In this document: piece after piece, positions 13,164-63,391 of the stretch
Position numbering within the stretch: the first letter of the stretch is position 1
How the letters are laid out: each line of letters starts with the position of its first letter
NCBI RefSeq assembly: GCF_000003815.2
Contig: NC_049980.1
Coordinates: 21,423,026-21,487,025, forward strand
Length of the DNA stretch: 64,000 bases
Origin: Branchiostoma floridae
Lineage: Eukaryota; Chordata; Leptocardii; Amphioxiformes; Branchiostomatidae
Direction of reading: 5' to 3'
Program-made: the position numbers and the translations under genes
Notes under the pieces: generated by a model
Database searches by the model: none
Told to the model about the DNA's origin: nothing
Seen by the model: the letters and a program-made list of their open reading frames with translations, nothing else

Positions 13164-16100
13164 ATGGCCTCGACGGACTCGCAGTCACCGGGTCATTCTC
13201 ACATGACGTCTCAGTCTTCAACTGACGACGGTGAAGTCTTCGAGGATTATGATGGCTACACGAAAAGGCGGTCCTCGTCTGTGTTTTTGGAGAGACTCAT
13301 TCGTTCAGGGACGCCCTTAGGTTAACTTTGAGCGGAGTAGGGTTGTGTCGGAGGCCAAGTCACAAGGAGAAGAGTGGATGAGGCGTTACCTGCGACAGGA
13401 GATAGAACGGGCAGGGTTCCCAGTTCCAAGGCCAGCTATGATGTCTGTGGACTCACGCCAATCATCAGGAGCAGAGGAGAATGCACAATCACAACAGTAC
13501 GTCATCACAAAAACTGACTGATTGGCTTATAACAAACAGTCAACATACATCTGTTTAGCAAAGACACGCCAGGCACTGATCAGTTTACAAACACATGTTA
13601 CACTGTTATCATTAGATTCTAGCGGAGGAACACAACGCATTATAATGATAAAATGATGTTGTTACACTTGTACAAACATGTATTATCTAAATGGGTTTCA
13701 ACATCATCAAAGGCCAGGCCATGGTCAAGCCAGCATGTACATGTATTGTAATTATCAACCCTGTGCAGATCAGTCAACTCATCACCCATATTGTAGGGGT
13801 TTTATATGAAATAAATGAAAACCTTTGAACAGATGTATAATGCTGTATAAAAAGTTTGTTTAAGTCAAGCTCATAAAAGTATGTGTTAACTAGTCAATAT
13901 AATGCTGACTCCTTCTTTTCCTTCACCAGTTCTGAAGCAGCTCTTCTTGCTATAGATGTGGAAACCTTGACTCACCAGCTGACATATCTTATCAAGAAAT
14001 ATGTCTATGTCTGTAAAGGAGAAAGGGAAAAGCTTTGGCAGAAAGCTGCTCTGGTAAGTTATACTAGTAATTGTTGCTTCTTTAAATTCATGTAACAGTT
14101 ACGTGTAATAGGGCTGAGTGGCAAGTATGCACAGTGTCAGTTTGAGGTGTATTTTTTGGCAGGAGTAATGTTTTACATAAAATATTAATATTGAAGAGAT
14201 TCATTAGTCGCATATGTGCACAGTCAATAGAATTTTCATCAAGCAGTGATTACTTTTAAAAGGTAAACACACATACCTCCAAATGTTAAGTGTTATGAAG
14301 ATGGAAGTATTGTTTTGAGGGTTCTGATTTAGGTCAGAATGGTGTATGGGGATACATCTCAAGAAGCGCTGGAAGGATTGCAATGGTTTTTGCCTTGCCG
14401 CCAGGCAAGGCTTTACGCCAGCTTTCTTCCATGGATCCATGGATCCATGGACGGACCTTTTAACCCAGCCCTTCCAAAGCCCCTTCCAAAGGCCCTTTGT
14501 TATTTTGGGTATACAAACAGTTTTAGTAATACAGACAGAGACCAAACTGAAAACCATCATAATATAAGAAGAAACAACTCATGAATGGAAACAAAGAAAA
14601 AGGATGTGCCATTCCACCCGAGGCAGACTTGCACCCGCCCACCCTTCTGCCAAGAAACGACACATCAAAGCAAACTGGAAATTATAAAGAGGACTAGAGA
14701 GTAGAAGGAGAACACCATAGTGAAGGACTGACCACACACACTGAACATCTAACAGACAATCCACCAATAGCAAAGACAGACTGTAGCACCAAACAAAGAC
14801 TACTACGACAAAGACTCTAAAAACGTAGAACCAAAACTCCCGTCCGCACACTTGCCCATCTAACAGATTGGCACCACTCAGCCAAGAAACTTTCAGAACC
14901 AAGTCGAACAAACTCCATCTTGAGTTTAAACCTAAGAGCCTCCTTGATTAGAGACACCAGCTCAATGTGAGATACGAAATTATTGTCAAAGAGAGCCTGA
15001 CACCTGGACCACCAAATCTTAGACCGAGCGACGGCCAAAATGTAGGTGCAGACATCTCTCTTACACTTCTTCAGGGTAGACGACATAACACCATAGAGAG
15101 CGACCGCGCGAGAAACACGAAAACTAGAGACCACCCATCGCCTAATGAACCCTTCGACCCAAGTCCAGGTCAGGAGCACCTCGCCACAAGACCAGATGGC
15201 ATGGGTAACGGTCTCCGTAGCTCTACAGTTTCTCCTCGGACAAAGAGGGGAAGGAGTTCTGTGCCAAATCGAACAAGTCAAGTAGTTGGTTTTGAGAGCC
15301 CCATGTGCGACCTTCCAGGAAAGCTCCTTTAGGTTATTCTCAAGGAGAGTGTTATGCACCGTTGAAAAAACAAGTGACCAATCAACACCCCGCTCTAAAA
15401 AACAAGCGGAAGGGGTATGAGAACGAGCTAAAATGGCAGCTTTGTACAAAGACTGCACGGTGCATATCTTGTCCCAAGTCTTCGAAGCAGAAGCATTAAC
15501 AAATTCCAAGGTGAGCTTCCGCATCAAAGAATAGTGAGGTGGAGCCTCAGGAGAGTGGGGGGAACTGTTAGACCACGATGATGGTTCAAAACGACGGGCA
15601 AAAAAACCCAGCCAATATTTTGCCAACTGGACCCATGGAAGATCCGGCCGGTCAAGAATATTGGTAAACGGCCGACAATAAAAACAATTGGCCTTCACTC
15701 CAAAATCAATGAGATCCCATCCACCTTTGTCCAAAGGTAGTATAACTGTCTGTCTAGAGACCATTTCTGCACGAGAACTCCAGAAAAACTTAAAGACGGC
15801 TCTCGTAATGTCCTTGACGACTGACTCGGGAGGAGAAAATACAGGAGCACTATACCACAAAGTAGATAAAGCAAGGTTATTAACGACGACAACCTTGCCA
15901 GCGAAGGATAAAGAGAAGCTGTCCCACCTTCGCAGAACCGCTTCAAACTTAGCTTGCCTCTCCCTCCAGTTGACTAAAGGCATATTAACACTTCCAAAAG
16001 TACCTCCCAATAAACGTATGGATACAGATGTCCATTTAAAATTCTTCGGACAATCGAGTCTTTTCCTCCAACTACCTAGCCAGAGACCCATACATTTGTC

Positions 16101-19100
16101 AAGATTTAAAAGAGACCCGGAACCTCTGTTATACATGTCAATAACAGCAAAGAGCCGGCGGATCGACTCATCGGTTGTAACAATAGCCGAGTTATCGTCC
16201 GCATACTGCGAGATCTTAACTTCACGGCCACCAGGCAACCTGAGGCCGTGAATCGCAGCGTCGGCCCTTACTGTAGCGGCAAATGGCTCCAAGGAAATTG
16301 CGTACAGCAGGGGTGACATAGGGCACCCCTGCCTAACACCTCTTGAGAGAGAAAAAGAAGATGATAGCGACCCATTGACGGAAACAGCACTGGTAATGTT
16401 GTGGTACAATATAGCAACCCATTTGCGAAAAACCGGGCCAAAACCCATCTTCGCAAGAGTCAAGTGAAGAAAATCAATATTCACTCTATCAAAGGCCTTG
16501 GCCTGATCCAGAGAAATGATCGCACAGTCAAAGTTATTCATATTAACATATGTAACGATATCTCTCATCAAAAGTAGGTTACATTGTATCGACCGGCCTG
16601 GTATACCGCATGTCTGGTCAGGACTGATGACCGAGGCGGCAACCATCTTAAGCCTATTGTTAAGGACCTTTGCAAGAATCTTATAATCGCAATTTAACAA
16701 AGAGATGGGGCGACGGTTCTTCGGGTCCAGAGGGTCCCCTTTTTTTGGAAGGAGAGTAATAACACCAAAACTCTGGCTCTGAGAGAGCTCGCCAGAGGAA
16801 AAAACTTCCTCAAAAACTGAGAGGAGATCCCCGGCAATGACGTCCCAGAAAGCGACATAAAATTCCTTCGGGAGACCGTCACTGCCAGGGGACTTATTAT
16901 TCTCCATACTGCGCAATGCAGCCCAAAGCTCATCCAATGAAAGAGGACCTTCTAATGAAGAGACTTCATCAGGATCCAAAGACCCTTCTAAATTGTTACA
17001 AAGGTTATTCGCCTCACACTTATCAATAGGCTCAGCACTAAAAAGGTCTTCATAAAATAGCTTAAAAACATCTAAAATCTCCTCGTCATCTTGGACAACA
17101 CGTCCAGTAGAATCTCTGACCGAAGAAATGCGTCGCTGCCTACTTCGGGAAGAGGCCTGGCTTACAAAATACGAGGTACATTTTTCCCCCTCGACAAATT
17201 GCTTGACTCTGGACCGAACAAAAGCACCGCGAGCCTCCTCAGCGGACAACTCGGACAAGGAAGACTTAGTACATTCATACCTACGCAAGATGTCCGCCGA
17301 GGAGGCCCCGTCGTTCATCTTGTTGGTGAGATCGACAAGTTCATTATTCAAGGTAAACATGGACTCCCGTCTCTCCCTAGCCAGTTCACAAGAAATTCTG
17401 ATCAAGAGAGAGCGAGTTCTAGCCTTTACATCGTCCCACCAGGCTCGCAAAGAAGGAAAACCTGGTTTCAAAGTCTTCCAATTGTTAAAAGCGAGTTTAA
17501 AATCATTTAAAACTTTGTCTCTTTTTAAAATCGAGACATTACATTTCCACAAGCCAGGCTTCTTCTTCACATCCGGTAAAATTGACAAGGACACACAGTC
17601 ATGGTCTGTAAAATATGCGGGTAAAAAACAGTAGTTTGAAACGACGAGGCATTTAGACGAATAAAATCGGTCCAGCCGACAGGCAATACCTTTGGTCGGC
17701 TGTCTCCAAGTGAAGACCTTTTTAGAAGGATTCTCATGTCTCCAAGAGTCATGCACATTAAAATCGGCGCAAATGTCTTTTAAAACGGTGGAACCGCCAC
17801 TACCATGAGCCGGGTTCCCGCCCCTCTTATCAATATCAACATCTTCAACGCAGTTAAAATCACCGCACAAAATAAGGGGCTCAGCCCCCGACAGAAACTT
17901 ATACAAATTTTTAAAAAATCCAGTACGCTCCGCAGAAATGTTAGGAGCATACATGTTACAAACTTTGAAATTACGCGCACCATCGGACAAGACGACACAG
18001 ACAACACGCCCACTGTCGTCACAAGACTTTTTAACCACATCAAAATTGAAAGATGGAGAGAGTAAAATACCCACACCTCTAGATTGGGAGGAGCCCAATG
18101 CCCAAAACGCTTGGCCTCCCCATTCCTTCTCCCAGAGCACCGCTTCAGATGTTGACGAAACATGGCACTCTTGGAGGCAAACAACGTCAAATTTATGTTG
18201 ACGGCAAAAGCCGAAAACCTGCCTCCTCTTCTGCGGACTACGGAGCCCACAGACATTGAGTGTAGCAATAAGAACCATGAGGCTACATAGAGAAGGAATG
18301 TCAAACAACATCGGAATGTGAGGAATTAGTGGTACAGATCATCGATTCCTTCCACACCAATTCGGTTAACAAATTGGGGGTGGACATTGTAGAGGTGCTT
18401 GAGACATAACATGGTGGTTTTAAAAAACCTCGAACAATTACCAACCTTACAAGGCACAATGTCCCCGGAGATGCCATGCGCCTTTGCAAGATGAGATTTC
18501 AAAGACCTAAAACTATGCAAGAGTTCGTCACAACCATGAGAAATAAACTGGTTGCACACAAAGACAGCCTTATTCTTGTACAAGTCAGAGGAGATGACAA
18601 TGGCTCTCGCCTTTGCTACCAAATCGGGACTTGGAGCCTGGGAGGCATCCGAAGTATCCTCATCAATGATGAGGCTTCTGGAGCCAACAGTAGAGTCAGA
18701 CTCGTTACCGTCCACAGAACGAAGACTGTCCGAGGGAAACTTCTCGATAACAAGACTGGAGTCGGAATCCGGCTCCTTACGAATCTTTTTTCCTTTCGAC
18801 AAAGTCTTTGCAGAGGCAGATCCCTCACTGGAATCACCCCTACACCTTTTCCTGGAATCTTTGTCAGCAATATCAGAGTTGCCATCATGGCAGCTCTGAC
18901 AAAGAAAGAGGCGATTATCGCTTTGACAAACTGGGCCCTCACAGAAAGCAAGGAGAGCAGATTCTGGAGTTATGTCTGCCTTGCACTGATGACAAGACAC
19001 CACCTCCAGAGTGATTGTGTAATCCAACTCACAACCCTGACACATGTACCGACGAGTAACAGGTCGGATAGGACTGGCCGCCTTACGCCTCCTTCTCTGG

Positions 19101-22100
19101 GACCGGGCGCGAGGGGCCGGTACCGGAGCAGCAGATGTTGAGGGTACCTGCTCGCTAGAAGAGGAAGAAAGGCCAGGCTTGGCCAGAGAAGGAGCGGCCT
19201 CCGACAGCACGTCCTCAGACGGCTCAACCACCGCGACCGGAGAAGACTTGGCCAGAGAAGGAGCAGCCTCCGACAGCACGTCCTCAGACGGCTCAACCAC
19301 CGCGACCGGAGAAAACTTGGTCAGAGAAGGAGCGGCCTCCGACAGCAAGTCCTCAGACGGCTCAACCACCGCGACCGGAGGAGAAACCTCCGGCTCCGCG
19401 ACCGGAGAAGAAACGACTTCACAGCCGAAGAAGTACCCGGGTCCACACTGCCAGGGTGACCTGGAGGCGAAACAGGATCAGATACATCAGACACTGCGTC
19501 AGAAACATGAGCCAGTTCCGACCGACCAGGCTTATTTACAGCCTGAGGAACCCCTCCATCATGGTGTTCACGGACCTGACTCACACCTGTCGGGAGCTCT
19601 TGGCTCTTAGCCCAACTGGCTCCCATCTTAATCCTGTTTGCGAAGGACAGGGGACAACGGCGGGCCGTATGTCCCTCTGCCCTGCAACTGAGGCACACAA
19701 CATCGTTGGTACAATCCATGGCCAAATGCCCAATGGATTGGCATTTGTTGCAAAATGTTACTGCACAATTTGCCGACTCATGGCCTTCCTGGTTGCATCT
19801 CAAGCAGGTACGGGGCTGCCCCACGTACCTGAAGAAAACCATCCTCCCGTCAAACATTTTCCATGCTGACGGGATATTGCATCCCGGCTTTAAAACTACT
19901 TTATATTGCCGGTTCCCATTTTTGATGGTCGGTCTGTCCCGGTATGTTACCATACGGGACGTGATGACGGCACAGTATTGATTTAACCAGTTCCTGACAT
20001 AGTTGTCATCGAGCTCATCCGGAATTCTTGTGGCCGTGACAATTATCTCCGCCGCCGCGTAAGATGACACATCCACGGCGTCTAAACCAGACAGTTTCCC
20101 CGCATACAATGTACGCTCGTGTACCGAGGAAAATGACACGTCGAATGAGTTTGGTCCCAGAGACTGAACAGCCTGAATGCTGCTCATGGGAGCCGAAACC
20201 TCGCTCAGCAAAGTAAACACTTGTTCATACGTTAACCGATCACGGTACACGGCAACTTTTATTGAAAGAGGACGCTTCATAATGCAGCTTTAACTAGAAC
20301 CAAATAAAACTAAAAAGGAACCAAAATATGAGCAGACAGAGCTGCCAGAGACCCTGAAAAACACTACCTGTAAATCAGACAGCCTCCACGGACTCCACGG
20401 GCAGCAAGGGTTGAAAACGTAACGTAACTGAAGGCGTGTAACCAAACTGACACGCTTAAAGAACAACCAAGTACGAACCAATAAACTAGGCAGCCTCTCC
20501 GGGCGCTACTGGTTCTCAAACTAAATTGCTAAATTTGCCAAGGAGCAAGCCCAAGTGGAAATTTCCACTCAGACAAAATGGACACCACTGTCTGTCTCAA
20601 CCCTTGAAATGCAAAACAGAGCAGCGTCCTACAATGGATGACCTCTGCCCCCTCTCAGCCCAGTCTATATAATGGGCGGGGGACAGCAGAAACTACAATG
20701 CTGCAGCTAGATTTTGCAGATGCGAAACAGGGCGAACGCCCCACACTGGATGGACCACCTCTGCCCCTCTCAGCCCAGTCAACGCAATGGGCGGGGGGCA
20801 GAAGTAAACCACAATGCTGCAACTAGATTCTGCAGTTTTAGATCAACTCATTAAAGCCCAGAGTTCAACCGACTTGCAAACCATTAGATCAACTCAATAA
20901 GCCCAGAGTTCAACCGACTTGCAAACCAATAGATCAACTCATCAAAGCCCAGAGTTCGACCGACTTTCGAACCACAAACTTACGGGCAAAAACACATTGT
21001 CACAATGACGTCCTTTTTGGTTTGGGTCAAAACAAAACTTGATAAAAATTTGACGTGACCAATTTAGCGGGACTGTCCGAAACGGAATAACATTCAAAAC
21101 AGGTAAACTTGTACCCAGGCAGGGTGCATCAAACACTGGGGAGAACCAAGGGTTGCGAGCCCTCCTGCCACCAAGTTCACCAAATCAAATATAAACTGAA
21201 ACTTAATAATATATAACTTGATGTCCCATGAACATGTACAGACAAAGACTTTTCCACTAGTCTTAATTATATACCCCCTACTGTTTGCATATCCAGAACA
21301 AAGTGGAGACCAGAACGAAACTCGCTGAGCTATCATAACACCACAATGCGAACCCTTCCCAGGCCGGAACAAACATACTGTAAACACTGAGATATACTCA
21401 ACGATAATCTCTCATCCGTCAAGCTAATTCGCCCAAATGGATGACCACACTGATTAGCCAAAGTCAACCGGACAGATGTTTCGTTTTTGTTTCAAACCAA
21501 TCAATATCGCCATTTCCAACCAGCAAATGAGCAAAACACAACGACTGATCCACAATCACATGAACTATTCAAGATGGTGACCTAATCCACCCAGAAGGAA
21601 ATCCACATGACTGCCACTATCTCCTACATACCAACAAACAGGTCGTCCCAAAGTTCAAGACAAGCAAGCACATCAAACTCGGCGAAGAGAGAGCAGCTCA
21701 AACTAGTCAAGAACATTAAATCCTTGATAGTAGATCCTTGGATCACCCAACGTCCTTGGATCGACTAGGTCAAGCCCAAGGCTTCACTTGGTAAGAAAAC
21801 CCAAGAGAAGCCAGAAGAAACTAATCAGCGGAAACAAAGCGATGTGATGTGATGGTCCATGGCGAATGGCCCCAGGACCAAACCTGGGCGAGCCCACAGG
21901 CTCCCCTGTAGGGAAAGCAAGATCTCCAAAAGAAACCAACAATCAAAACAATTCCAGAACAACATCACTGTGCAATCAACTACTCAACAACATATGACCT
22001 ACGTTCCACAGACATTGTACACATCTTCACGCCTCGGAAAACCCTCATTGGCATGAATGACGCACAACAACATCCTCCCGTAAAGCCACAGGTGCAAGAC

Positions 22101-35017: not shown

Positions 35018-35428
35018 CAAACAACCTAATCTCCAAGCAGATTCCTCCGTGGCATGAGCCAGTAACATAAGCTGAAGAAGGAGTTTAGCCGGCAGAGGAG
35101 TAAAATTGGCCAATTTTACTCCTCTGTCGGCTAAACTCCTTCCCCAGCTTATGTACTNNNNNNNNNNNNNNNNNNNNNNNNNNNNNNNNNNNNNNNNNNN
35201 NNNNNNNNNNNNNNNNNNNNNNNNNNNNNNNNNNNNNNNNNNNNNNNNNNNNNNNNNACGCTTCAGAAAAGCAAGATCTTGCACTTGGGAGCGGAATGGG
35301 AAGTCCAGAAATAGCCCATCGGACCGTAAAAAGTCTCCAAAATCAAGAAGCTGTTGTCTAAACTCCTTCCCCAGCTTATGTTACTGGCTCATGCCACGGA
35401 GGAGTCTGCTTGGAGATTACAAACAACC
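35018..35428. mobile_element. Foldback element with 9-bp target duplication, containing an assembly gap
   Basis: The element (35027-35419) begins TAATCTCCAAGCAG and ends CTGCTTGGAGATTA; the outer arms match over about 60 bp, including cctccgtggcatgagccagt on the left and its complement on the right. Exact 9-bp direct repeats CAAACAACC flank it at 35018-35026 and 35420-35428. A second, inner palindrome is centred on aaaattggccaatttt near 35110. The 100-N gap (35158-35257) lies within the hairpin. Confidence 0.8.
35158..35257. other. Assembly gap (100 N) inside a foldback element
   Basis: A fixed 100-N placeholder. The arm sequence taaactccttccccagc occurs on both sides (about 35128 and 35356), so the gap probably reflects a hairpin that was hard to sequence or misassembled. 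Confidence 0.99.
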
Positions 35429-45923: not shown

Positions 45924-48900
45924 CTACTTATTCTTGGATAGAGTTCTCTGTTTCTCAGCATGTTCTACTATTTTCTCATCAACATACAGTCCTTTTCTCC
46001 GTCGTACACTATTCATATACAGACGTCCTTGATTTTCAGAATCAGCCTTCTCTCCAAAGTGCATCAATTCTTCCTCAGTTATTGGCTCCCAGAATGGGTC
46101 ACTGTTAACAACCTGAAACACCAATGGAACACTTTTGAGTTTGACGCTATTAAATATAACAAAGATCATTATTCAACTTGATACATTGTACCATGGAGAA
46201 AACATAGTTAGAATTATTCTTAGATGTGATTTACCTTACAAGAATGAATTTTACAATACTTAATTGTGAAGCCAAATTTTTATTATGTGCAAAATGCCCA
46301 AGCCCATATTGCAATACAATAGCTTTGATGCTATAACACAATCAATATGAAGAGATGACTAAAGACTATAATAGACTGCTGTTAAGCTCACCTCCCAGTG
46401 ACTGAACACCAGTTGAGGGCTGGCCAGTCCACTTGTTTTTTTCCTGATTTCCTCAGCAAACCCAAAACTCTCTGCCACTGGTAGTGCTGCCTGGATGCTG
46501 AAGACTGACAGGCTTTCATTCATGTCCTCTTTCAGAACCTTTCCATTCTTCCGTCCAAGCACAGCATACATCTTGCCTTCAATTGAAACCATGGATTTCA
46601 GTATATTTTCAATATATTCATCATGTGAAGCTCAACATACAGGTATACAAGACCTTCATCAACGTAGTCAAGACCTTCATTATGTAAAAGCCTCCATCAT
46701 CATCATCATCATCATAAAAGCTTCCAATACATTTCTACGGTATTTGTACATTTCAACTATGACCAAAACTCAGAACCCTTTTCTAGTTCAAGTTATAAGT
46801 CAAGTTATATATTGACTTGCAGTAAAAGACATGTTCTGGACAAAACAAGTATTGTATAGTAGCAAGCATGTCTGACCTAGTACATCTGCTGTGGCCTGGA
46901 TGTCACAAGTGTACATGGCAGCCATCAGTCTCTGGGGATGTTTCTGAAATGCTTGTCTGCAAGCCTCCTTCATTGTAGAGATCAGCTGACCTGAAGCAAA
47001 GTTGTAGGCTGAGTATAAATTTGAACCTTGAACGCATAAATGAAAGGAAACACTGGAAAAACTAGGAATTTCTTCAACTGTTGGTGGCAAAACATTCTGG
47101 GATTGATAATTATATTTTCTGAATGGTTTGGGGTTGTCATAAGCTCTTAATTTGTTAACGCTACTGCATGTTTGCAATCTCAAAACATCCAGTCTAACTG
47201 ACCTGTGAACGGGCCGTGACGATCCATGAAATCTGACTCAGCCATTTCCCCATCTGAGTCGTCTCCGCTGGACTGGGATTCCTCATCCACTCCTTGTGAT
47301 AGTTTATGTTCCCTGGGGGAGAGAAAGTGACTTCGGGGAGACATAGACACACCAAACGTATCTGAGTGTGCAGAGGACACATCCTCCTCTGCCATTCTTG
47401 TGGCTTGGATTTCCTCCTTGTTTGTCAGAGTGTCATTAGTTCTTGGTTGTCTCTTCTCTGACAGTTGTTCCTGCATGGTCCACTCTTCCACCACGAAACA
47501 AACCCCCATGAGTGGCTCCTCACACAGTGGTCCAGCCAGGGTTGCCAGCTGAAATCCGCTCCCAATGGCATGGTCAAAGTGCCGAAACTGTGCAGCTGAC
47601 TTCACCTCTCCCTTGTCTATAGAGTCCCACACCGATGGTCGCTGATACCCCGCAACCCTGTTTAGCAATATGTTTGGACCATTTCGCCTTGGACCAAATG
47701 CCCAGATCTGATCTATGGCATCTCTGTAATGTCTACCTGCTTGTGCAAACTTGGCCCCAAGAGTGGACTTGAACTCGGTTAACCTATTAAGTGTTTCCGC
47801 CGTGACCTTTGCCCTTTCAGCTTGATGGTGACTGATGTCGCCACTTGACTTGGTGATCCTGTCCAGCGTACGGAGCAGGTCTGCATTATCCTCCAGAAAG
47901 TTGCTAATGTCCTCTGGCAGAGGCAAGGCACTCACCTTCAAACTGCACAATTTGTTAGGAGTTTGTAACAATATGGAACCACCTGGAAATAATCCATATG
48001 GATACCAATGAGTGCAATGTCTACAACATAAATAAAATGCTTTTTGTAGAAGAATTGACAGCCAGTACATATCAAACATCTGATGATCTCCTCAATGACA
48101 ATGAAAAGGTATATTTTCTTATGCTAAACATTCACCTATTCATTGATAGAATAACTCTGGAGACCAATGAGGTTTTTATTATGGTGACAAAGTAGAGAAA
48201 GACTGCTGGAAAGATTGAAGGAGTACAACACAAAAGCATTAAAATTACCCCATTTTATCTTTTTATCTGTAGCTTCCTTTCCAGACTTGGTGATGCGGTT
48301 TGTGTCGTGGTCAATGACCTCATTGACCATGTCCACCTTGGGAGGGGGGATGATGGTCTCTCGGAATGGCACCATGGGGTCCGACACATTCAGCTCAATT
48401 TTGGCAAATCTGTGGAGGTGGAATATTAGTATGATACCTTCTCCTATTCTTGCACTGTCACAATCTTGCTAATACTAAGATACAGCCCAGATCACCATGG
48501 TGCATATATCTGATCCTAAACTACATGTATATGGTAGTTGCTGTGAGTACCTCTGAGTCAGATCATCCAGGCACCTCTGCAGGTGGACCTCCCCAGCAGT
48601 GACCAGGACATGTTCCCCTGACTCCTGCACCAGAACCTCCACTGACGGGTCAGCCTGGTTCAGCAGCCGTAAACCCTGCATCAGGGCACTCATATCTCCT
48701 GTGGGATGATGTGTACCATTATATGAACTTGATATTTCAAATTCAAGTACCCCCCGGTAATAATTTCCAGGTAGGGGACACATAGGAAACAAGGCATTCT
48801 TCAAAGCATACATGGCCCAATAGAAATAATTTGCCTTATAAAAAAGACTGCTAAAGTTGTATATTTCATTTCAATAGATGAAGTCTCTACCTTTACACCA

Positions 48901-56118: not shown

Positions 56119-56969
56119 CAATGGTAATCCCAGCTGTGGGTGGACTGGATGGAACACGACAGCTAATCATATTAATGGGGGAATGGGGGTGAGGAAATTA
56201 TAATAAGCAATTAACAATCAGTATCTACTACAGGAACCCTCAGTGCTCAAGATACTCCTGTATTCCCTGTGGCTGCATTGCCAGCCAGTCCTGTGTTACA
56301 AGGAATATGCTGTCTATCAGTCACATATCCTGCACATAAGAAAGGAACAACACAGACAGCTCTACTAGTTGTACATCATACAGTACAAACACACACTCAC
56401 AGCATGCGCACACAAACTTTTTTTTTGTAAACAAATGATTATTGACACACTCCTTCAAAGCGTGAGACATCTGTTTTGAATTTGATGTTGTGCCCCATCC
56501 TGGTATTATTTGTTTCACCTAGTAACAGTTACCCCTTCCCTTCAATCTTAACATTCACAGCATTTTCTGTTGTTTAATTGGAATTTAGTTTATATAATTG
56601 TTTTCTTACAGACTTGGATGAGCTGTTCATTGCAAGCCCAGCAAAATGATCAACTGTTACATTTCCCCCATCCCAGCCCCATCCCACCCACAGCTGGAAT
56701 TGTCACTGACCCAGTGTTTACTAAGAAAAAAAAATTGCAGCTACAGGCCAAACCCTATGCATAGCCTTGGGGCCCCAAAAAGGTAGTCTTTCAGGCTAGC
56801 CAGCCCAGCTCCTGGGCCCAGGCTTTTCCGTAAACCCGATGCAACAGCCCCTCCTGTCCCTCAGTCATTTTACTGTATAATGTCATAATAACCACTTGTT
56901 TGCATAACAGTACAATGAGCCTACAATAGGATCAGGAGTAAAGCAGACTACAACAAGTTGGAAAAAGCA

Positions 56970-59900
56970 ATGATGCTGAATTATAGATGCCTCATCATCA
57001 TCATCATACTTGTCTACAATGCTCTGCACACAGTGTCTCCTTTACCTGACAGAAAGATGGCCAGTGGATACACAAGTGAGCACACTTTATAATCTGTCTT
57101 GCATAAAGATACGTAATGATATTGTCCTGACAAGACATACATGTAATATGATTTCATGTCATGGATATAACGTTATGGTCACAGGATGTCATATTAAAGA
57201 ATCTTGTTTGATACTGTATGTTGTCATCTTTGGTTACTTGTGGAATACATTTTTAACTTATGTCTATCTTATGAACTATATACACCAGGGTATTACATCT
57301 TCATCACAAATGTTATATTCTGATACATTCATATTTCCTTCTCAGTTCCTGTACTTGGTTTGGGTACAGCAGCAATGGGGGACAAAACATATGATGCTGT
57401 GATGGATGCTTTGAAAGCTGGGTACAGGTAAGATGTTACAGTGTTATATCTCCTCACAATAGTTACACAGTCTGACACTAGACAGTTCAATTAAAAATAT
57501 ATGTTTCTTAATTGCTAGTTTTTCACTAGTGCAAGCACACAACCTAAACTAAAGCTTGCTGCAGTGACTGTTGGAGGGCTACCATCACATTAGATCACAT
57601 CGATATTGTCTTTGACCTAGTAAGCAATCTCTTAATGAACTTCTTCTTATCAACATGATAAAACCAAAATATAAATCTCTTGACAATGTGTGAAAGGAAT
57701 AAAAAATCAAGAATTTCTTTTTTTTTTTTTTTCTTCTAGAATGATTGATACAGCTCAGGCCTACTGGCACTCTGAGGAATCCATTGGTCGAGCCATAAGG
57801 GACTCAGGCATTCCTCGAGAAGACATCTTCATCATCAGTAAACTCAGCCCCCGTTATTTTGGTCGTGATCTAACAGCTCGCTCAGTGGATGTGTCACTCA
57901 GGAAACTTGGTACTGACTTCATTGATCTGTTCCTCATCCACAATATACATTGCTCTGACTACTTCCAGTGTGCCCCTGATGAACCTAAAGCCACATGGGA
58001 AGTTGCCTGGAAGGCCATGGAAGAGCTGCACAGACAGGGTAAACTAAGGAGTCTTGGAGTCAGCAACTTCTACCCTCCGCTTCTGGAAAAGCTGGTGGCC
58101 ATGGCAGAAGTACCAGTTTCCTTGGTACAAAACTGGTTTGATCCGTTCTATCGAGACAAGGCAACAAGGCAGTTCTGTGAGAGACATGGCATTGTGTACC
58201 AGGGGTACAGCACTTTTGGGACTCAATGGATGTATATGAGACAAGGGCAAGAGAGAAATCCTGTCCTCACAAATCCTTTTCTTATGAAACTCTCGGAAAC
58301 TTTAGATGCGTCTGTAGCCAACATTGTCCTGCGATGGGCCCTACAGAAAGATGTTGTTGTGATTCCACGATCTGTGAATACTGAGCATATACAAAATAAT
58401 ATGGAGGTCCTTGACTTAGAATTAAGTGAAAAAACTGTGAGTGACATTGACAACAATCTACCTTCTGTCAGGATTGGGGTGAACGGAGAACCAATCATAG
58501 ATGATGCTACATGGAATAGGATAATGGGAAATGTAATTGCAGATAACCATGATGATGATCTTGATAGGATGAGAACTGCAACTGAACAGCAACAGGAGAG
58601 GAAAAACTCTGGGCAGACAAAATTAACTGATGTGGTTCATCTTGAAGATGAGACAGTTTTTATTGGGTCCGATGACGGCAGGATGTATGCCTTAGATGCT
58701 GAGAATGGACATGTCAAGTGGACATTTACCTCAGGTTAGTCACAACAGGCAATGTCATGCAAAACACTCAGATATTGTATGAAAATGAGCCGGTTTTGAT
58801 GATGATACATGTTTCCAGGAGTCCAAATGTTCTTAAACTTCAATCCTCTTGCTACTTCTGCTTGTGGATTTGATTGCCTAATTAGAGTTAATGGCAAGAT
58901 GACGATAAAGAATTAGAGCTTAATGCCTTATAAGAACTCGAGTCATGATATGTGATACAACAGGATGCAGTTACCTGTAGGTTGACACCTCATCGACCAT
59001 GCTTTTTTTTTATCATCCAGAGGAGGATCTGGGGTCCACTGCTGCATTCAGTCCAGACCAGTCTGTGCTATACTTTGGGTCAGAGGATGGGTACATGTAC
59101 GCCTTACGTGTGAGGGATGGGTATGCAGTATGGAAAGTAGAATCAGGTTAGCAAAGGGCCAGGAGAGTTAGTAATAACAGGGTACATGATAGTTACTTTT
59201 CAATGCTCATGATGTTTTTGGTAATGTTGTAATTCAATCAAACCAAGATCGACAGAAAGGTACTGAATTGAACATTTGTTTCCAGGGCCTGTCAGAAGTT
59301 CATCTGTGGTTGGCTGGGATGGTACCATCTATATTGGCACCCTGGACAACCAGATTTATGCTATTAAACCTGATGGAGAGGTAAAGTGGTCACGTGATCT
59401 GGGTGGGGAGATTTGGGCGCGTCCTACCATCGGGAGTGGTGGAAGACTGTTGTATGTTGGTGTCATGGCAGACAACAACCACAATGCTTTTGCACTAGAC
59501 TCACACACAGGTAAGGGCATTTAATGTCAAAGCTACCCTTTATATTCTCTAGATAAGTGGTTGTTGGACTGTAAATGGTCCAGATGTTGTAGATGTGTTT
59601 TGGAATGTGATTCAATTTTTATACTATATATTGTAGTCACGTAGTATGCTAAACCTATAACTTCCAAGCTTACACGTATTGATACAACAGTAACAGATAT
59701 AACAACCTTTAAAGTTCAATGAAGTGGTGAAGGTTGATTGCAATTTGTTCCTCTCAGGGAATCTGGTGTGGTCGTTCAGAGCTGGTGGGAGCAACTGGTC
59801 GTCCCCAGTCCTAAGTCATGATGGCCGCTATGTGTTCTTCAGCTGCCAGGACTCCCACATCTATACCCTGCTGGCACACACTGGGGACCTGGTCAGCAGC

Positions 59901-61108
59901 TTTGATGTGGGAGAGGAGCATGATGGGATAAACTCTACACCTGCCATTGCCAAAGATGGAACTTTATTTGTTGGTAGGTTTAACTAAAAAAAAAAAAAGC
60001 TTCCCAGCTGCAGTATTGAAAGAAAAGCTAGGTGTCTCTGATAATGCACACTGTTGTTGAGACACTCAAGCAGATGTTTGAAAATTTGTGTTTTATTTAT
60101 TTTCAACATGATGTAATGCCTTTGATTTGACATAGTTAATTTATCTACCCCAAGTTCTGGACATGTGTTGTTCTTGTGCCTTGGACAGGGACCAATGGAG
60201 GGTCTGTTGTTGCTGTTGAGATTGGAAGGGGGAAGCTGAAATGGGAGAAGAAGCTGGGAGATGAGGTTCTATCCTCACCTGCACTGGACAATGGAGGAAA
60301 CCTTTACATCGGCACCAGTGATGGCCAAGTTCTCAAGCTTAAGCAAAAAGGTTTGCCCAACATGTGCCAGGGTTACAAGAAATTGTAGTCAGGTAGAATC
60401 ACCGATCCCAGTCAGAGTCTATAGATTTAAAGATATTCCCTTAAAAGATAGTCAGAACTTTTAAACTTTAATTCAAGTCATATTTTTAGGATTTATTAAT
60501 GGGAGACTACCTAACACATTCCCTACATCCTTATCATACTATATGATTCATAGTATATGTTGATGAATCAGGATCTCTAACGATAGAATCGCTGATTCTG
60601 CCAGATCCAATTGTCTACCCTTACCACCTTAGTCACCTAGCACAAAATTGTAGTATTAGACTGAGTACACTTCCAATGTCTAACAATTTCATGAAAAATA
60701 GCTCAGTATACTCATGTCCAAGATCCAAAATTTGCATGTACATAATGATTGACCCTATGTCTTTGAAGTTAACAGTTACCCCCCTCCTTGATGTAGGCTG
60801 CAATTGATTAGTATTTTGACTGAGGTTGTGGAAGCTAATCAATAAGGCCATTTGCTATGTTTTCAGATGGGTCCACTGTTTGGCAGATCTCAACTGGGGA
60901 TGCGGTCTTGTCCAGCCCCACATTGGACTCCCATGGACGGGTATTTGTGGGGTCCAACAGCGGCTTTGTCTTTGCTATTAATGAGGAAACAGGCCAAGTG
61001 ACCTGGAAGGTTGAGACTGAGGGACCAGTGGTTGCATCTCCATTGATCACAGCTCACCATCAGTATAACTATTGGTACGGTGGAGAAGACACTAAGGATG
61101 AACTGTAG
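56970..61108 (+). CDS. Aldo-keto reductase fused to PQQ-type beta-propeller, signal peptide and KDEL
   Basis: Exons: 56970-57075, 57346-57427, 57740-58734, 59021-59146, 59286-59510, 59758-59973, 60189-60350, 60867-61108; phases 1,2,1,1,1,1,1; 717 aa. Residues 1-20 form a signal peptide (MMLNYRCLIIIIILVYNALH); the last residues are TKDEL, the ER-retention signal, so the protein should sit in the ER lumen. The aldo-keto reductase (about 35-300) has IPVLGLGT, the tetrad residues Asp and Tyr in MIDTAQAY, Lys in IISKLSP and His in LFLIHNIH, and the NADPH-binding IPRSVNTEHIQNNM. After a charged linker, PQQ-like repeats form a propeller of about eight blades (VFIGSDDGRMYALDAENGHV, YFGSEDGYMYALR, IYIGTLDNQIYAIKPDGEV, LYIGTSDGQVLKL, VFVGSNSGFVFAINEETG). 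The catalytic tetrad is complete, so reductase activity is likely; substrate is unknown. The ATG pair at 56970/56973 is in frame and the only start giving the leader. Confidence 0.88.
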
Positions 61109-63303: not shown

Positions 63304-63391
63304 CCCAAACACAAGACAAGGATGTAACTAAGGAGATAGAATGGTTGGCACTCCCGACCATTCTATCTCCTTAGTTACATCCTTGTTTGGG
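63304..63391. repeat. Near-perfect inverted repeat with about 28-bp arms
   Basis: The left arm AAGGATGTAACTAAGGAG then atagaatggt (63318-63345) is perfectly repeated in reverse from 63357 to 63384, around an 11-bp loop. Outside this, CCCAAAC (63304) pairs with GTTTGGG (to 63391), with 7 extra bases on the left. It shares the AAGGA/TCCTT edge with the mini-hairpins. Confidence 0.85.

Follow-up and report, generated by a model that had tools for sequence, protein, structure and literature searches.

Aldo-keto reductases (AKRs) are mostly known as cytosolic enzymes, and a gene of the lancelet Branchiostoma floridae raises the question of what such an enzyme might do when it is fused to a beta-propeller and addressed to the lumen of the endoplasmic reticulum (ER). 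The gene lies at 56970-61108 on the plus strand of G000:C2:21423026-21487025, a stretch of 64,000 nucleotides that was analysed as a whole and is called the window here, in a host genome of 513 Mb in 431 contigs. It had earlier been read, from its letters alone, as a single gene joining a complete AKR to about eight propeller repeats, with a signal peptide at one end and KDEL at the other (the sequence-only reading). The present analysis confirms, at the level of genomic sequence, that this architecture is real, with leader, AKR, linker, eight PQQ-like blades and KDEL in one gene, and places beside it a paralogue on another chromosome, C14, in which the same module stands behind a JmjC-type oxygenase. 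On balance, the product is probably a soluble, ER-resident carbonyl reductase with a non-catalytic docking propeller, which would enter by its signal peptide and be returned by KDEL receptors.

Gene model and fusion joint

Rebuilt from the sequence, eight joined exons give one frame of 717 amino acids whose sole stop is terminal, and an in-frame stop lies upstream of exon 1, at 56916. All seven introns are GT-AG, with phases 1, 2, 1, 1, 1, 1 and 1. The exon boundaries were picked by their fit to the frame and by homology. Frame and phase thus partly reflect how the boundaries were set; the recurrence of the phases in the C14 paralogue provides independent support. The junctions 57427/57740 and 58734/59021, already proposed in the sequence-only reading, are both correct in the rebuilt model, whose features are as follows.

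56970..57075, plus strand: exon 1, opening with a signal-peptide-like leader (MMLNYRCLIIIIILVYNALHTVS...) and running into the AKR N-terminus, DRKMASGYT; donor GTGAGC, phase 1
57346..57427, plus strand: exon 2, AKR start (IPVLGLGTAAMGDKTYDAVMDALKAGYR); ends in phase 2
57740..58734, plus strand: exon 3, remaining AKR (D66, Y71, K97, H130; cofactor-loop R273 and H279), linker, most of blade 1
58368-58370, plus strand: codon of R273, at the position of xylose reductase Lys270
58386..58388, plus strand: codon of H279, which corresponds to xylose reductase Arg276, the contact for the 2'-phosphate of NADPH
58626..58734, plus strand: fusion joint, start of blade 1 (residues 359-394) within exon 3
59021..59146, plus strand: exon 4, last part of blade 1 and the greater part of blade 2
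59286..59510, plus strand: exon 5, blades 2-4
59758..59973, plus strand: exon 6, blades 4-6
60189..60350, plus strand: exon 7, blades 6-7
60867..61108, plus strand: exon 8, remainder of blade 7, then blade 8 and the C-terminal tail, with KDEL (61094-61105) before the stop (61106-61108)

Exon 3 codes for the AKR from residue 64 onwards and for the linker, and takes in 36 of blade 1's 45 residues. Since both domains lie in this one exon, their fusion depends neither on splicing nor on its prediction, and a separate propeller mRNA becomes less likely; the claim of a single gene stands, with the joint inside an exon.

A paralogue with the same module

A genome search with the 717-aa protein returned at least 27 matches, and those to the propeller part fell at two places, the window and C14 (42 of 42 candidates scored). 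As reconstructed, the C14 gene (minus strand, 17164309-17142324; loci L012, L009 and L010) comprises 14 exons coding for 1,382 aa without an internal stop; its introns are GT-AG in 13 of 13 cases, and among them are found the same seven phases as in the window gene. Its predicted product runs in the order leader, JmjC/Cupin_8, AKR-A, AKR-B, propeller, KDEL. Cupin_8 (cut-off 27.4) scores 95.4 bits in the second half of the JmjC part and 23, under the cut-off, in the first, and Aldo_ket_red reaches 358.3 bits over two stretches, AKR-A and AKR-B. Identity between the two proteins is 63-64% in the AKRs, 64% in the propeller and 68% in the 19-residue C-terminal tail, which on C14 ends DAKTKDEL; the joint AKR-propeller exon is shared at 60.5% identity over 342 columns. 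The counterparts of exon 2 in the paralogue, e2A and e2B, are likewise 82 bp long, and the last 12 or so codons of exon 1 match its exon e1A, which the leader part does not. With the phases of all seven introns, the two domains and KDEL found again in this second gene, the architecture is not a product of chance.

By the Nei-Gojobori method, the window gene and its C14 paralogue differ by pS 0.69 and pN 0.20 in the AKR half and by pS 0.68 and pN 0.19 in the propeller half, at synonymous sites so near saturation that the pS/pN ratio is not to be pressed; these values clearly point to purifying selection keeping both halves for their protein.

C14 offers a rival first exon (17158168-17158028), hydrophobic and with a phase-0 donor. 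The JmjC exons were preferred because the last JmjC donor is also of phase 0, because the start of e1A falls where standalone JmjC proteins continue (a weak likeness), and because the JmjC part read past its donor has no retention signal of its own. Upstream of the window gene, neither a JmjC domain nor a second AKR was found within the window. The sequence-only reading had held the domain pairing to be unusual: the fusion is real, but it is no lone oddity, having a second copy to which a JmjC-type oxygenase and a further AKR are joined.

ER address

The window protein begins with MMLNYR followed by CLIIIIILVY, where hydropathy peaks at 2.9 over 11 residues, and KDEL forms the last four residues of both proteins. 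Upstream of a shared KMxSGYT stretch the N-termini differ, being a bare leader in the window gene and a leader plus JmjC on C14. Two unlike ER-type fronts on one KDEL-ended module are the strongest evidence for a lumenal protein, and the best reading of the window product is a soluble, ER-lumenal resident; the ER address proposed earlier is strengthened by the KDEL-ended paralogue.

Similar endings occur in standalone JmjC/Cupin_8 relatives. The best separate places among the genome matches to the C14 JmjC domain, with weaker ones left out, are L034 (C4), L035 (C3) and L037 (C1), which end RDEL, RDEL and HDEL, respectively; they are open over 439-513 codons without an intron, have a hydrophobic start as judged by eye, and probably make up an ER JmjC set. 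All three also have an EF-hand-like stretch, which in L034, the one scored, falls just under the Pfam cut-offs.

Catalytic residues and predicted cofactor preference

A Pfam search of the 717-aa protein bore out both domains read from the letters, with Aldo_ket_red at 172.5 bits against a cut-off of 24 (residues 39-301; profile positions 2-288 of 291) and PQQ_2 at 143.7 against 27.6, in four stretches. The tetrad is complete, as had been noted: D66, Y71, K97 and H130, with codons checked, are invariant in all three AKR copies (one in the window, two on C14). For comparison, prokaryotic AKRs were taken as the best 80 of at least 459 relatives in genome contigs, found with two search patterns that both derive from the AKR part; the tetrad positions hold Asp in 80, Tyr in 74, Lys in 80 and His in 80 of these 80. 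The nicotinamide-side motifs VSNF and GYS are likewise present in the three lancelet copies, which also have in common C134 and C140, just past the catalytic His; these two cysteines may form a disulphide.

An AlphaFold model of exon 3 only (27 sequences; mean pLDDT 78.3, pTM 0.71) shows an AKR barrel that lacks strand 1, this strand and the first helix being encoded by exon 2, and after the barrel a helix and four strands; confidence is low beyond about residue 303 of the protein. Its top Foldseek match is the NADPH-bound Leishmania prostaglandin F synthase 4g5d (E 6.2e-21, TM 0.64 by query). Profile, tetrad and (alpha/beta)8 barrel together place the window protein in the aldo-keto reductase superfamily.

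The cofactor is another matter. In the loop that holds the 2'-phosphate of NADPH, the window AKR reads IPRSVNTEH, whereas the three solved proteins aligned read IPKS....R, with Arg at the Arg276 position in four of the four alignments shown. The NADPH-specific Lys/Arg pair for the 2'-phosphate is not found in the window AKR in this alignment, R273 and H279 standing in its place; His occupies the Arg276 position in all three lancelet copies, and the window copy has the Lys-to-Arg change in addition. Among the best 80 prokaryotic AKRs, the same position holds Arg in 62, Asn in 8, His in 6 and Tyr in 4. In Pichia stipitis xylose reductase, the R276H mutation gave a kcat ratio NADH/NADPH of 25.5 and a specificity ratio of 2.62 favouring NADH (Watanabe et al. 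as quoted in PMC2213684). As the 2'-phosphate Arg is His in every copy and R276H turned xylose reductase toward NADH, use of NADPH alone is doubtful. The sequence-only reading had called the enzyme NADPH-dependent; use of NADH, or of both cofactors, is no less likely, and NADH, or NADH together with NADPH, appears a likelier cofactor than NADPH alone, though such residues are not proof.

What the propeller resembles

Eight PQQ-like repeats, segmented by eye, span residues 359-698, in agreement with the earlier count of about eight. The top propeller model is PF13570, the AASDH/ACSF4 propeller (254 bits against a cut-off of 133, a score summed over, and inflated by, the repeats). The Pfam repeat models PQQ and PQQ_2 pass their cut-offs. 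PF01011, the PQQ dehydrogenase propeller, is over its cut-off in the sum (53.7 in the window gene and 43.9 in the C14 gene, against 26.7), without any single passing stretch in the window protein. The unrelated propeller models CGLA and ANAPC4_WD40 pass as well, and because models of other families do so, the PF01011 and PQQ_2 matches are read as likeness at the level of the repeat.

At the level of the family, the NCBIfam models for PQQ dehydrogenases are far from reached (TIGR03075, 79.3 against 480.05; TIGR03074, 34.6 against 832.65), as are those for BamB (TIGR03300, 159.9 against 285.2; NF008351, 139.6 against 423). The propeller has one cysteine, hence no vicinal Cys pair of the kind typical of PQQ dehydrogenases. 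The earlier label 'PQQ-type' therefore holds for the repeat and does not extend, by the NCBIfam models, to PQQ dehydrogenase or BamB. Nor are PQQ-like propellers, which the same reading had called usually bacterial periplasmic or dehydrogenase domains, only bacterial: an AASDH-type propeller locus on C7 matches PF13570 positions 20 to 328 in successive pieces, better than the window gene does. A copy of the AASDH propeller was considered as the source of the window propeller and dropped, the C7 locus fitting PF13570 in order whereas the window exons match overlapping parts of the model.

Proposed mechanism and its alternatives

Going by its sequence signals, the protein would enter the ER through the signal peptide and be returned there by KDEL receptors. 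Given the intact tetrad, the AKR would reduce an aldehyde or ketone by hydride transfer from a nicotinamide cofactor, with Tyr71 acting as the acid, aided by Lys97, His130 and Asp66. The propeller would serve for docking, recruiting a client (protein or glycan), a partner or a small molecule whose carbonyl is reduced; substrate and client are purely conjectural, docking of a protein or glycan being what the fold class might allow, and the JmjC oxygenase joined to the same module in the paralogue suggests work on ER protein clients. A bolder extension, which we regard as improbable though worth stating, is that the two genes form a family of ER-lumenal multi-enzyme proteins. A JmjC-type oxygenase and then one or two AKRs would act on one propeller-held client: the oxygenase would make or expose a carbonyl or an unstable hydroxylated residue, the AKR would reduce it, and the window gene would be the short form, reductase and docking only, using NADH.

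Several points weigh against the carbonyl reductase proposed here. The leader is judged by hydropathy alone, the linker is poorly kept between the two genes (38.5% identity), and how much free NADH the ER lumen supplies is uncertain. Six of the best 80 prokaryotic AKRs, whichever cofactor they use, share His at the Arg276 position, and R276H xylose reductase still has a Km for NADPH tenfold below that for NADH (Watanabe et al. as quoted in PMC2213684).

A further such point is M30 (MASGYTIPVLGLG), from which translation could also begin, yielding a cytosolic form in which KDEL would be meaningless. The corresponding alternative has two starts, the long form going to the ER and the short form from M30 serving as an ordinary cytosolic AKR with a tail. 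M30 does stand at the usual AKR start position, with A at -3 and G at +4, both in line with the start-site consensus; the same Met, however, occurs twice inside the C14 protein (KKMPSGYT, FRMPSGHT), internal to the frame, and KDEL is kept in both genes, so that we give two starts a rather small chance. Much the same small chance attaches to a pseudo-enzyme, in which a scaffold or chaperone-like protein of the ER lumen would have kept the AKR fold only to bind ligands or sense redox state: many PQQ-like propellers bind proteins only, and the 2'-phosphate Arg is gone in all three copies, which on the other hand keep the whole tetrad together with VSNF and GYS, with few amino-acid changes.

Two further alternatives are very improbable. 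That an AKR gene and an adjacent propeller gene were misjoined could be argued from a propeller spread across several exons and from the nature of the evidence, a gene model; it is answered by exon 3, whose frame stays open from the AKR across the linker into blade 1, most of which it covers, and by the recurrence of this joint exon in the paralogue at the identity given above. A quinoprotein, in which the propeller would bind PQQ and act as a dehydrogenase beside the AKR, draws on the PF01011 scores of both genes, although CGLA and ANAPC4_WD40 pass too; it has to contend with dehydrogenase models far under their cut-offs and with the lack of a vicinal Cys pair. The ER-resident carbonyl reductase is kept as the preferred reading.

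If real, an AKR-propeller module in the ER lumen, alone and behind a JmjC-type oxygenase, would point to carbonyl reduction as one step of ER protein chemistry and would supply a defined protein for testing it there, while the natural Arg-to-His change yields a clear prediction on the cofactor that an ER reductase can use. The two-gene JmjC-AKR-propeller family, if true, would represent a novel type of protein repair or editing within the folding compartment.

Occurrence elsewhere and origin

The fusion was searched for in this animal genome and in plasmid, viral and prokaryotic records. Matches were found in 1783 of 72,556 plasmid records, none covering 80% or more of the query, and viral contigs yielded no match to patterns built on one protein, which find close relatives only. 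A propeller match (E 1e-3) was found in the flanks examined at none of the best 80 prokaryotic AKR loci; one Arthrobacter match, unannotated, reaches query residue 383. Literature searches yielded no description of an AKR fused to a PQQ-like propeller, as judged by title and start of abstract. Lancelets gain domain pairs unusually fast (PMC4284660), and the surprise of any single fusion is lowered accordingly.

In a tree of just the three lancelet AKR copies and 14 bacterial AKRs from the 80 loci, the three copies form one clade apart from the bacterial ones, and the window AKR groups with AKR-B of C14 (support 87/84, not firm), a hint that the window gene may have lost AKR-A. A recent origin from bacteria was considered and, on this set, neither adopted nor rejected.

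Neighbourhood of the gene

The upstream neighbour, on the opposite strand, is EFL1 (domain match of 83.9 bits at 47183-48091, minus strand), its GTPase start lying by eye at about 54.6-54.8 kb (minus strand). Non-LTR retrotransposon-like frames occupy 14820-20289 (minus strand), one of 1173 aa that includes an endonuclease and a reverse transcriptase, the other a zinc-knuckle frame of 322 aa. An inverted repeat at 63316-63386 consists of two perfect arms of 30 bases each, separated by 11 bases, around GGATGTAACTAAGGAGATAGAATGGT. Runs of unknown bases are at 1858-1957, 29576-29804 and 35158-35257.

Comparison with known systems

The best sequence and structure matches of the AKR are Leishmania and Trypanosoma prostaglandin F synthase and Bacillus subtilis YvgN, which we take to be of the AKR5 subfamily. 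Fold, tetrad and motif order are alike; these enzymes, however, are single-domain, and the aligned ones have Arg at the 2'-phosphate site where the window AKR has His. To our knowledge, AKR5-type enzymes carry no leader, propeller or KDEL. The NADH-preferring xylose reductase mutants of Pichia stipitis (R276H; K270R/N272D) resemble the window AKR in that the latter natively has both K270 to R and R276 to H; they are engineered single-domain yeast enzymes, and position 272 is Val, not Asp, in the window AKR.

The AASDH/ACSF4 C-terminal beta-propeller is comparable through PF13570, whereas its adenylation domain is not found among the 13 Pfam families matching the window protein. EMC1, IRE1 and PERK have lumenal PQQ-like propellers of similar repeat type, in membrane proteins without an AKR; EMC1_N reaches 27.1 bits on C14, under its cut-off of 34, and is not listed for the window protein. 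In human cells JMJD8, a JmjC-only protein with a signal peptide, resides in the ER lumen (PMC5684140), and by this description signal peptide, JmjC and compartment compare with the JmjC part of the C14 paralogue; the same source terms JMJD8 JmjC domain-only, and 'KDEL' is absent from its main text. Set against these systems, the AKR-propeller pairing appears new among the records and literature searched, and the window gene and its paralogue would bring known domains together in an ER architecture that is new, duplicated and under selection.

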